39,757 nucleotides of DNA from Candidatus Saccharimonadota bacterium (lineage in GTDB: Bacteria > Patescibacteriota > Saccharimonadia > Saccharimonadales > Saccharimonadaceae), in the NCBI GenBank assembly GCA_009785095.1, contig WQXA01000004.1, positions 1-39,757 on the forward strand. The letters are read 5' to 3'. The notes under the pieces were generated by a model. The model ran no database searches and had not been told where the DNA came from. It saw only the letters and a list, made by a program, of their open reading frames with translations. Position numbers and translations under genes: made by a program. Each line of letters begins with the position of its first letter. The stretch's first letter is position 1. Below are positions 19,591-30,767 of the stretch, piece by piece.

Positions 19591-19710
19591 TGATTTTCAG
19601 AAATCCCGTCGTCATTGCGAGCAACGCGAAGCAATCCAGAACTGGACTGCTTCCCCCGGATCAAATCCGGGGTCGCAGTGACGGGAAGGTTTTGATTAAC
19701 CGGAAAATCA
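19591..19710. repeat. Nested palindromic intergenic repeat (REP/MITE-like)
   Basis: TGATTTTC (19591-19598) / GAAAATCA (19703-19710); CCCGTCGTCATTGCGA / TCGCAGTGACGGG; GAAGCAATCCAG / CTGGACTGCTTC; CCCCGGATCAAATCCGGGG. Confidence 0.75.
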
Positions 19711-20386
19711 AGGTGTTTCGGGGGTTCCAGCAGCGGCATTAAGAGCAAGCTCTGCTAGCGGCCTTTGCTCAGCTAACGCAACTTTTTCCATCGCAGCAGT
19801 GATATCTTCCTTTTCGGCAAAATTACCGAACAATTCTGCCTTACTGCTAGCCGAGCGTCCACTACGGCAGATGATACTGCCAGTATCATCTGCACCCAAC
19901 TTTCGTCGGTTCAGGCAGAACATTTTTATTTTATAAGCATCTACTCCAATTTTCCTCTGTTGTGCCCGATCTTCCCAAAACCGATCATTATCTGTCCACT
20001 CGCCATCATCCGGTGGCGGTGGGATTCTGAGATAAAAAGAATCAGACTGAGGTGGCAGTTCGCTAGAGAGCTGCGTTAGTAATCTCAGAATACGACAACT
20101 GTCCTGATCCCAGTCAGGGTTTCTGGTAATGGCATCCTCGACAAAGCCGCGAAGATCATAAATATGATCGACACGGAAGATGCTGTGGCAATACTCTAAT
20201 AAAGCACTGCGCACTGTTTGCATAGACTGCTGAGAACCAACTATCTCTACGACTGCACCTACTGAGTCTTCAGATCCGTAGTACTCACCTGATAATCGAA
20301 ACGGCAACCTGGTTTTTGGTTCTACATCAGTGGGCTCTGTTTGATGGGGGGGGGGTAGGTGCTACTTGTCCAGGTTTGGCAGGCAT
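19708..20386 (-). pseudogene. Candidate phase-variable gene, OFF at this tract length; unknown protein (C9 would give one ORF)
   Basis: SD GAGGAG and ATG at 20386 (2 nt after upstream stop) open MPAKPGQVAPTPP..., C10 tract 20346-20355 shifts to TGA; removing one C fuses to ORF 19708-20307. Confidence 0.8.
20346..20355 (-). repeat. Homopolymer C10 (minus strand) contingency tract
   Basis: 10 consecutive G on the + strand. Confidence 0.95.
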
Positions 20387-20388
20387 GA

Positions 20389-21456
20389 CTATTTCTCCTC
20401 CCCTGCTTTTTCGTCGAGCGCATACTGCGCCTTGGCGACGCGTTTGAATTCTTTCTGGTTCTGGAGGTTGAGGAGGATGGTGGCTTCGCGGACTTGGCGG
20501 ACTTTGAGGACGCGGCGGACGATTTCCTCGCGGTGCAGCGGACTTTCTTCCTTTAGAATATCACGAATAACATCGGTGATCGAGCCTTTTTTGTAGCCCC
20601 ACTCCGATAGCGCATAGATGCCACGACCGACCAAAATGAAACGATCGTCCTTGATTAGCTCGTTGTGAATCGCCTGTTCGGTGACATTGTTGCGGCGGAA
20701 ATTCTGCGATTTGACGGCCTCGGCGATGTCGCTAAAGTGCGTCGGTTTGCCGGCGATACGGAGCACGATGTAAATTTTGTCGCGGATGTTGCGCGGATTG
20801 ACGAGCGGCCATTTGGTCAAACCCCACGCGCCGTCGAGATGAGCGATTTGCTTGCTGATGCTGGCGATGGCGACGGTCTCGTCGGGATGCTCGTATTGGC
20901 CGCCGGCTATGCTAACTAGTTTGAACAGGCCGTCCTTGTCGAGCGGTTCGCCGTGCTTTTTGAGCGCATCGACGATTTTGTCGACCGATTGTTTGATGCC
21001 TTTGTCTTCCTTTTCTTCGGTCAAGACAATAGCCGGATGATAGCGATCGTTCTCGGTGGTGACCACCATTTTGGAAGAAAGTTCGGCCAAAAGAGTGACC
21101 ATGCCGCGCGATTTGGTGTCGCTCGAGCCGAGCAATTTCTCGGCCAGGGTGTCGGTTCTCGCGGCGCGACCGAGCTCGTGCAAGGCTTTGACGATCTCGA
21201 CTTCGGCGGCATCAAAGGCCGGATTTTTGCCGTCATCGAGACCAATTTTGGTGCGGATGAGGGTGGCTTTCTCGATCTGGCGGACACGTTCGCGCGTGAT
21301 GCCGAGAGTTTCGCCCACCGATTCCAACGTTTCGCGCATGCCGTTGATTCCGAAACGGCGCTCGATGACTTCACGCTCGCGCGGTCGGTCGATGCTGGCT
21401 AGGACTTTCCTAGCGACGCTTTCTAATTCTTGTTTGGTGGCGGGTGTTTCTGACAT
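20389..21456 (-). CDS. Regulator with sigma-70 region 4-like HTH fused to HARE-HTH-like domains
   Basis: REREVIERRFGINGMRETLESVGETLGITRERVRQIEKATL sigma r4 signature; C-terminal RDKIYIVLRIAGKPTHFSDIAEAV... winged helix. Confidence 0.75.
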   Translation of the reverse strand: MSETPATKQELESVARKVLASIDRPREREVIERRFGINGMRETLESVGETLGITRERVRQIEKATLIRTKIGLDDGKNPAFDAAEVEIVKALHELGRAARTDTLAEKLLGSSDTKSRGMVTLLAELSSKMVVTTENDRYHPAIVLTEEKEDKGIKQSVDKIVDALKKHGEPLDKDGLFKLVSIAGGQYEHPDETVAIASISKQIAHLDGAWGLTKWPLVNPRNIRDKIYIVLRIAGKPTHFSDIAEAVKSQNFRRNNVTEQAIHNELIKDDRFILVGRGIYALSEWGYKKGSITDVIRDILKEESPLHREEIVRRVLKVRQVREATILLNLQNQKEFKRVAKAQYALDEKAGEEK

Positions 21457-27413: not shown

Positions 27414-27442
27414 TTGACAAATCACACTAGAAGTGCTACAAT
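27414..27442 (+). promoter_or_regulatory. Consensus promoter TTGACA-N17-TACAAT, ATG 6 nt after the -10
   Basis: TTGACA 27414-27419, TACAAT 27437-27442, ATG 27449. Confidence 0.85.
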
Positions 27443-27448
27443 GTGCAC

Positions 27449-28507
27449 ATGGCGTCATTGCACGATTCTCCGTTGGTTGTAGATAGCCCGAATCCAACCG
27501 CTCTTAATGCGGGGGGGGGTCTAAGTGGTGATTCAACTCCTGTAGTCCCTCCGAATGTTCGTCAAACACAAATTTATCTAAATGCTGGATTAGATCCGAA
27601 TCGAGAGATATCCGTTAATTATGAGGGGCAAGTAATATGGTCTGACGAAGGCTACTCGGCAAAGCAAAGCCACTTTATTTATCCGTGGACCAATGAGGCA
27701 CTGACAGATTGGTACGATAGACTCAAGGTTTACCTAGCGGGCAAAAAGGTTGTCGCAGTTTGCAACAGCGATTTCGTACTGACTGCAGTTATGGCTGGTG
27801 CCGAGCAGCCCGTAAGAGTTATCGATAACAATCTAGCCTCACTGTTCTTCGCAGAGCTCAAAGCTGTCGCTGCCTCCAGATTGGATCGGCTGGAGGATTT
27901 CAAGCGATTTTTTAAAACTTTCGCAAACCCTTCACTCCGTCCTGAACATGAAAGAGTAGGTTTTTTTGGCGAGGTCTTCGAAGATCTGTCTCCTCACCTA
28001 TCTGATCACTCACGCGGCTATCTCAGTCAGGTTTTTGAAAGCGTCTATATCCGCAAACACCTGATTTCAAGAAGAGGCGCTAACAATGGCAGGGCGCGTA
28101 ATGCGCCATATCTGCAAAACGAAAGTGCATACTCCAGCGTTAGACTAGCTAGTTCTAGAGTAGAGTTTTGCCCCGAATCGATAGAACAGTTTTTTGGCGC
28201 TATGGTGCTCGGTAGGCTGACGCCTCATTCGCAGTGCGATACAGCTTATCTATCAAATGCACCTGCGTGGATTAGCCTTTATGGCTGGGGATCCGACGAT
28301 AGTGTTATAGGAGTTGTCAATGCGGTCAGTGATGGTGGACATGTACTGATAGCAACCGATGGCTATAGACAAGAGGAATCCTTACTACTTGCAAACAACA
28401 CGGGCGCCCGTTTGACGCGTATCCGACGAGATCCCCCTGGAAGAAAAACCGCCTTTAACGAGATGTCTGTGTTCTATAGATACCACGAGACCGATCTGTT
28501 GAGCTAA
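27449..28507 (+). CDS. Candidate phase-variable DUF3419/BtaA-like (SAM-dependent aminocarboxypropyltransferase-like) protein, ON at G9
   Basis: VVAVCNSDFVLTAVMAGAEQPVRVIDNNLASLFFAELKAVAASRLDRLEDFKRFF resembles DUF3419 motif I region; G9 tract at codons 21-24. Confidence 0.6.
   Translation: MASLHDSPLVVDSPNPTALNAGGGLSGDSTPVVPPNVRQTQIYLNAGLDPNREISVNYEGQVIWSDEGYSAKQSHFIYPWTNEALTDWYDRLKVYLAGKKVVAVCNSDFVLTAVMAGAEQPVRVIDNNLASLFFAELKAVAASRLDRLEDFKRFFKTFANPSLRPEHERVGFFGEVFEDLSPHLSDHSRGYLSQVFESVYIRKHLISRRGANNGRARNAPYLQNESAYSSVRLASSRVEFCPESIEQFFGAMVLGRLTPHSQCDTAYLSNAPAWISLYGWGSDDSVIGVVNAVSDGGHVLIATDGYRQEESLLLANNTGARLTRIRRDPPGRKTAFNEMSVFYRYHETDLLS
27511..27519 (+). repeat. Homopolymer G9 contingency tract
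   Basis: 9 consecutive G in the 5' end of the 27449 CDS. Confidence 0.95.
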
Positions 28508-30170: not shown

Positions 30171-30767
30171 ATGACAGGAAATGAGCAGCGATTTAGCTCA
30201 GCTATGAATGGAGTCTTAGAAAGCGTTCCGCACGACATCAGTGGCTTCCCGTTTTTTGCGGCCAGTTGCGCGCGGGTTGCCATGATGCCAGACGGTGATG
30301 TTAGGGGGGGGGCTATGGCTGTTGATGAAACAGAGCGTACAAAAGAAATTCGGAGGAGCATAAGAAAATACAGGCTGTACAGGGCGCTTCTGGGACACGC
30401 AGGTATGGAGGCTCCAAAAACTGATCAGGAAGAAGACGAGTATAATAGAATGCTGAAAATGTCGGGTCTGCACGCAGAAATCGACGGGATCCTTGGGGAA
30501 ATAAAAACCAGCAAATGGATATTGGCAAGCAGCAAGAAAAGGCTTCGTCGGACTTCCAAACGCAATGAAAATAGAGGTACCATGAAGAGTAGTATAAAAC
30601 GGCGTAAAACTGACATCGGCGAGTTGATGAATAAGGCATGCGAGCTAATAGAGAGCCTAAAATCCGATCACCAGCAAGCTCACCAGGAAGCTGCGGCTAG
30701 ACAGCGCATAGGTCGTCGCTGGCTGGCGCGTCTAGCCGTTGCTCGTCAAAATTCAGCTTCGAAATAA
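30171..30767 (+). CDS. Candidate phase-variable protein of unknown function, basic/coiled-coil rich, ON at G9
   Basis: MTGNEQRFSSAMNGVLES...; G9 tract 30304-30312 read as AGG GGG GGG GCT. Confidence 0.6.
   Translation: MTGNEQRFSSAMNGVLESVPHDISGFPFFAASCARVAMMPDGDVRGGAMAVDETERTKEIRRSIRKYRLYRALLGHAGMEAPKTDQEEDEYNRMLKMSGLHAEIDGILGEIKTSKWILASSKKRLRRTSKRNENRGTMKSSIKRRKTDIGELMNKACELIESLKSDHQQAHQEAAARQRIGRRWLARLAVARQNSASK
30304..30312 (+). repeat. Homopolymer G9 contingency tract
   Basis: 9 consecutive G in the 5' part of the 30171 CDS. Confidence 0.95.

Follow-up and report, generated by a model that had tools for sequence, protein, structure and literature searches.

The gene at 27449–28507 and its G9 tract

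The window, by which the whole analysed stretch of 39,757 nucleotides from a Saccharimonadaceae genome is meant, carries on its + strand an orphan gene of 352 amino acids (27449–28507) that is assembled in the ON frame. A G9 homopolymer, the predicted phase-variation tract, occupies positions 27511–27519 (+) within codons 21–24, beginning 20 codons downstream of ATG 27449. From this ATG, the codons GCG GGG GGG GGT CTA AGT traverse the tract, and the frame then stays open until the TAA at 28507. A tract one base shorter (G8) reads GTC TAA and a tract one base longer (G10) reads TCT AAG TGG TGA, each ending in a stop codon. The open frame at G9 and the quick stops at the two neighbouring lengths, both pointed out in the first-pass annotation, are borne out by this codon reading. 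As random frameshifts in DNA of 50% G+C usually meet a stop within about 20 codons, such rapid stops by themselves constitute little proof of a switch.

The same annotation described the OFF states as clean, which holds for G8 and has to be qualified for G10. A second ATG (27507–27509, +) adjoins the tract, starting 4 nt upstream of it, and is in frame with the gene body solely at G10, where it would open a reading frame of 334 codons (ATG CGG GGG GGG GGT CTA); G10 therefore may be incompletely OFF, giving a shorter product. The first codons 3' of the tract in the displayed sequence contain no ATG, GTG or TTG in frame.

A sigma70-type promoter, TTGACA-N17-TACAAT with a TG before the -10 element (27414–27442, +), precedes the gene. 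As the -10 element ends 6 bases 5' of ATG 27449, transcription is predicted to start at or beside this ATG, and a leaderless mRNA is probable. Upstream of the ATG, position 27443 holds an in-frame GTG.

Paralog and genomic context

The 151 family genomes yielded a single relative of the gene, a paralog within its own genome (C21:3023–4117, 53% identity). The paralog retains the promoter and a G9 tract of the same length, while its first 20 residues bear little resemblance to those of the gene; judged on this one paralog, the tract has been kept despite divergence of the surrounding sequence. The +1 and -1 frames of the paralog terminate within 9 codons. Its tract is also adjoined by an ATG, but that ATG is in the ON frame. 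Searches of other genome contigs, viral contigs, phages and plasmids found no relatives.

The window is collinear with contig 10 of a congener (G001) from 5237 to 30135 except for accessory insertions. In G001, the DUF5684 gene and der, which flank the slot of gene 27449–28507, are only about 40 bp apart, indicating that the gene is absent there. A mobile cassette bounded by repeats was considered and rejected, as no convincing flanking repeats were found around the gene. The gene stands alone, with a strong promoter to itself, between conserved housekeeping genes.

The predicted product

The identity of the product as a DUF3419/BtaA-like enzyme, proposed in the first-pass annotation, is weakly supported by profile comparison. 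The DUF3419 (PF11899) score is 15.9 bits for the product and 19.9 bits for the paralog, below the Pfam gathering cut-off of 28.2 bits. The weak resemblance lies in a Rossmann-like segment (residues 108–204) and consists of acidic ..ID/FD.. and ELK..A motifs, with a YLS motif later in the protein. In place of the glycine-rich SAM-binding motif, which reads CSGGDN in L185, a bona fide DUF3419 protein of Saccharibacteria, both paralogs have CNSDF, and profile comparison with L185 gave a non-significant probability of 3%. A single-sequence structure model of the 352-residue protein has a pLDDT of 33, too low for a fold search, and a sequence search of solved structures with a two-sequence profile (the gene and its paralog) returned no match. 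Because the DUF3419 match is sub-threshold and the glycine-rich motif is changed, the suggested role in modification of lipid or surface polar groups is unsupported.

A genome-wide set of G/C tracts

The window contains no G/C runs of 6–8 and three of 9–10, at 20346, 27511 and 30304; a dinucleotide model predicts about 0.1 G9 runs in the window. The C10 tract at 20346–20355 (+ strand coordinates; C on the coding strand of a minus-strand gene) precedes a gene body at 19708–20343 that is assembled OFF. This gene has an upstream ATG with a Shine–Dalgarno-like purine stretch and sits downstream of an ORF at 20389–21456; in G001, the corresponding slot is occupied by two tract genes with no similarity detectable by tblastn. 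The G9 tract at 30304–30312 (+) lies in a gene in the ON frame, running from ATG 30171 to a stop at 30767, which encodes a small basic protein, has TTGACC-N17-TATAAT immediately 5' of its ATG and has no homolog in the congener.

Genome-wide counts, covering 778,487 of the 781,496 bases of the assembly, reveal 101 G/C runs of 8 or longer in this 778-kb genome. Run numbers for lengths 4–13 are 1638, 244, 24, 1, 6, 54, 34, 5, 1 and 1, respectively, and the dinucleotide model predicts about 1.5 runs of length 9, as against the 54 counted. No A/T run is longer than 8. As run lengths are bimodal (1 at length 7 and 54 at length 9) and long A/T runs are absent, the G/C tracts are a separate class and not the tail of a distribution. 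Thus, the homopolymer at 27511 is longer than expected by chance in both the window and the genome. GGG accounts for just 11% of glycine codons.

The placement of the tracts points to regulation at two levels. At least 15 of the 101 tracts lie between the -35 and -10 elements of sigma70 promoters, these 15 having an exact TTGACA (TTGACA...TAnnnT; 0.17 expected) and spacers of 16–20 nt, most often 19; an example is TTGACA-gca-C9-attgtgt-TACAAT. Length changes in these tracts would alter promoter spacing, a recognised route to transcriptional phase variation. The tract at 27511 belongs to the other group, being inside the coding region. ORFs were called mechanically, and tracts close to short ORFs may in some cases be assigned to the wrong one. 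On this basis, 61 of the 82 non-promoter tracts fall within the first third of their best ORF (KS p about 1e-14), and 45, 19 and 18 of these 82 reach their best frame with 0, +1 and -1 bases, respectively, so that ON and OFF states are mixed; the excess of ON over one third results in part from the choice of the longest ORF. Both the frame analysis at 27511 and the genome-wide placement imply that a change of one unit would alter expression by virtue of tract position.

Genes with tracts differ from the rest of the genome. A strong promoter directly precedes the start codon in 12 of 61 tract genes and in 6 of 542 others (p 5e-9), and homologs in the congener G001 exist for 21% of tract ORFs versus 70% of other ORFs. 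Matches of 74 tract-gene products are spread over 40 Pfam families, almost every family being matched a single time; a few tracts adjoin housekeeping genes, where gene assignment may be wrong. In an all-versus-all comparison of tract flanks, no leaders shared between different bodies were found, barring short promoter-like stretches and overlapping windows, and this comparison rejects the idea that the tracts are leader/body recombination joints.

Strand polarity

With the leading strand deduced from GC skew alone, G lies on the locally G-rich (presumed leading) strand in 58 of 67 G tracts, and 25 of 34 C tracts are in regions of negative skew (p 3e-9 for G and C tracts together). The congener G001 has the same polarity (p 0.001). 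For tracts in the 5' coding part of leading-strand genes, 31 are G and 7 are C, whereas for those of lagging-strand genes, 3 are G and 20 are C (p 1.5e-7). Because the choice between G and C flips between leading- and lagging-strand genes, the polarity tracks replication and not coding. Through this polarity, the effect of replication direction on homopolymer slippage lends itself to a natural test.

Occurrence in the family and mismatch repair

By the topA gene of the window, the nearest named relatives are two metagenome-assembled genomes of Candidatus Saccharibacteria, very small bacteria that depend on hosts: Th196P3bin19 and Th196P4bin6, where Th196 denotes the humus-feeding termite Termes hospes (PMC7024585). 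An identical 4.8-kb stretch of contig 10 identifies G001 as Th196P4bin6. The genome of the window presumably has an origin similar to that of these termite-gut congeners. The congeners are about 70% identical in topA DNA and therefore unfit for comparison of alleles. A comparison of orthologous tract lengths within three genera (g1, g56 and g10) gave a similar outcome: the species are about 70–79% identical, and the tract genes are absent from the corresponding slots.

Most of the 151 family genomes have no G9 at all, and about 17, scattered over many genera, have at least 20 9-mer hits. MutS domain V is missing from 150 of the 151. Loss of MutS as a sufficient cause of the tracts is rejected, as tract-free family members also lack it; loss of mismatch repair may permit the tracts without being sufficient. 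In the genome of the window (G000), a C11 tract is located near the start of a gene for about 1170–1205 amino acids (C1:38583–42047; L208), whose C-terminus matches MutS domain V with 41 bits; this mismatch-repair-like ATPase may be phase-variable itself.

Many of the tracts inspected in other genera adjoin the promoter -10 element and precede genes for type IV prepilins (L157 and L148), a TIG-domain protein, a collagen-repeat protein and large predicted secreted proteins. The prepilin genes with G9–G10 at the promoter -10 element are L157:9336–9773, L157:9838–10284 and L148:4816–5367. Type IV pili function in host binding in the Saccharibacterium TM7x (PMC12206443). Because related genera have tracts in promoters of type IV pilin and surface-protein genes, host attachment itself may be phase-variable. 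In one family genome (G011), a near-identical strong promoter sequence of about 30 bp is repeated dozens of times, as around L153:9442–9471.

Tracts are found very near contig ends in 3 of 50 cases in G001 (0.3 expected) and in 2 of 101 in G000 (1.0 expected), the excess being significant in G001 but not in G000. Such proximity is seen in several family genomes, as would happen if mixed tract lengths interrupted assembly.

Interpretation and alternative explanations

The G9 tract at 27511–27519 is very probably a slipped-strand phase-variation (contingency) switch. This part of the first-pass annotation is well supported by the 101 tracts with their bimodal lengths, 5' or promoter placement and mixed frames, and by the paralog; the change of tract length at 27511, and the change of expression with it, we infer. 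Replication slippage would change the tract by one base and thereby switch the gene at random and reversibly: G9 would give the full 352-residue protein, G8 no protein, and G10 either nothing or a product about 20 residues shorter from ATG 27507. Among the approximately 100 tracts, some would switch translation and others transcription through promoter spacing.

A variant of this mechanism is start-site switching, in which G9 uses ATG 27449 and G10 uses ATG 27507 to make two isoforms, G8 alone being OFF. The in-frame position of ATG 27507 at G10, directly beside the tract, is suggestive, an ATG also adjoins the tract of the paralog, and start-site switching by repeats is known in Neisseria meningitidis (PMC5084427). 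However, no Shine–Dalgarno-like sequence lies 5' of ATG 27507, the promoter is positioned for a leaderless start at 27449, and the ON frame of the ATG in the paralog means that the arrangement is not conserved. Two isoforms are rather unlikely. Slippage might instead occur at the G9 during transcription or translation, in which case each cell would mix in-frame and out-of-frame products from unchanged DNA. Transcript slippage is possible at long homopolymers, and about half of the coding tracts, although assembled out of frame, have long ORFs. Slippage by RNA polymerase or the ribosome leaves unexplained both the promoter-spacer tracts (at least 15), which lie upstream of the transcript, and a polarity that tracks replication and not the coding strand, and is improbable.

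The tracts could also be a neutral by-product, G runs accumulating where mismatch repair is missing and being tolerated only in dispensable orphan genes. The family-wide lack of MutS and the prevalence of orphans among tract genes fit this idea, but neutral accumulation does not account for the lack of long A/T runs and the near-absence of G7–8, the evident concentration of tracts in 5' ends and promoter spacers, the majority of family genomes, which have neither MutS nor any G9, or the tracts ahead of pilin and surface-protein genes in other genera; it is a highly improbable account. Least credible of all is an artefact of assembly or sequencing, even though the source is a metagenome-assembled genome and some tracts, as the 3 of 50 in G001, lie very near contig ends: the same signature recurs in independent assemblies from several genera, neither the placement nor the strand polarity is expected of artefacts, and mixed tract lengths would equally produce contig breaks at tracts.

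With slipped-strand switching as the preferred reading of the tract at 27511, the wider picture, which we hold with somewhat more belief than doubt, is of a 0.78-Mb Patescibacterium with about 100 poly-G/C switches (about 130 per Mb) of transcription and translation, largely in fast-turnover orphans between housekeeping genes and with replication-strand polarity. Were each tract to slip independently of the others, the cells of a clone would express different combinations of genes. The switches probably serve to diversify interactions with bacterial hosts, phages or competitors.

Relation to known systems and implications

Poly-G slippage as a means of phase variation is familiar from textbooks for a few pathogens. 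The mechanism is already known; the surprising parts are the host lineage, the tract density and the strand polarity. In a PhasomeIt survey of Campylobacter, 53% of poly-G/C tracts have 9 repeats and 26% have 10, and the median for C. jejuni is 20 tracts per genome (PMC6321876). The present tracts resemble these in the dominance of G9 and G10 (54 and 34 of 101), location in ORFs, mixture of ON and OFF states and abundance of rare genes with few homologues. Unlike in Campylobacter, 101 tracts occur in 0.78 Mb, a much higher density per base, the genes are mostly orphans rather than mainly surface-modification genes, and polarity follows the presumed replication strand (PMC6321876). Neisseria meningitidis likewise combines frameshift, promoter and start-site-switching tracts in one genome, but differs in phylum, lifestyle and gene content, and its length variation has been proven by deep sequencing, whereas that proposed here is predicted from assembled sequence (PMC5084427). 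A hypervariable repeat gene of a Gracilibacterium is another case of repeat-based local hypervariation in a CPR bacterium, but concerns one locus with 9-mer repeats and silent changes, neither a homopolymer switch nor a genome-wide set (PMC6851277). In the open-access literature, to the exclusion of subscription papers and preprints, no description of poly-G phase variation in Saccharibacteria or other Patescibacteria (CPR) was found.

If the phase-variation reading is true, the reduced, repair-poor genomes of relatives of obligate symbionts can keep large contingency repertoires, and stochastic switching becomes a testable basis for phage escape, pilus expression and host range in Saccharibacteria. 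In addition, frameshifted genes in such metagenome-assembled genomes may be OFF alleles, not pseudogenes.
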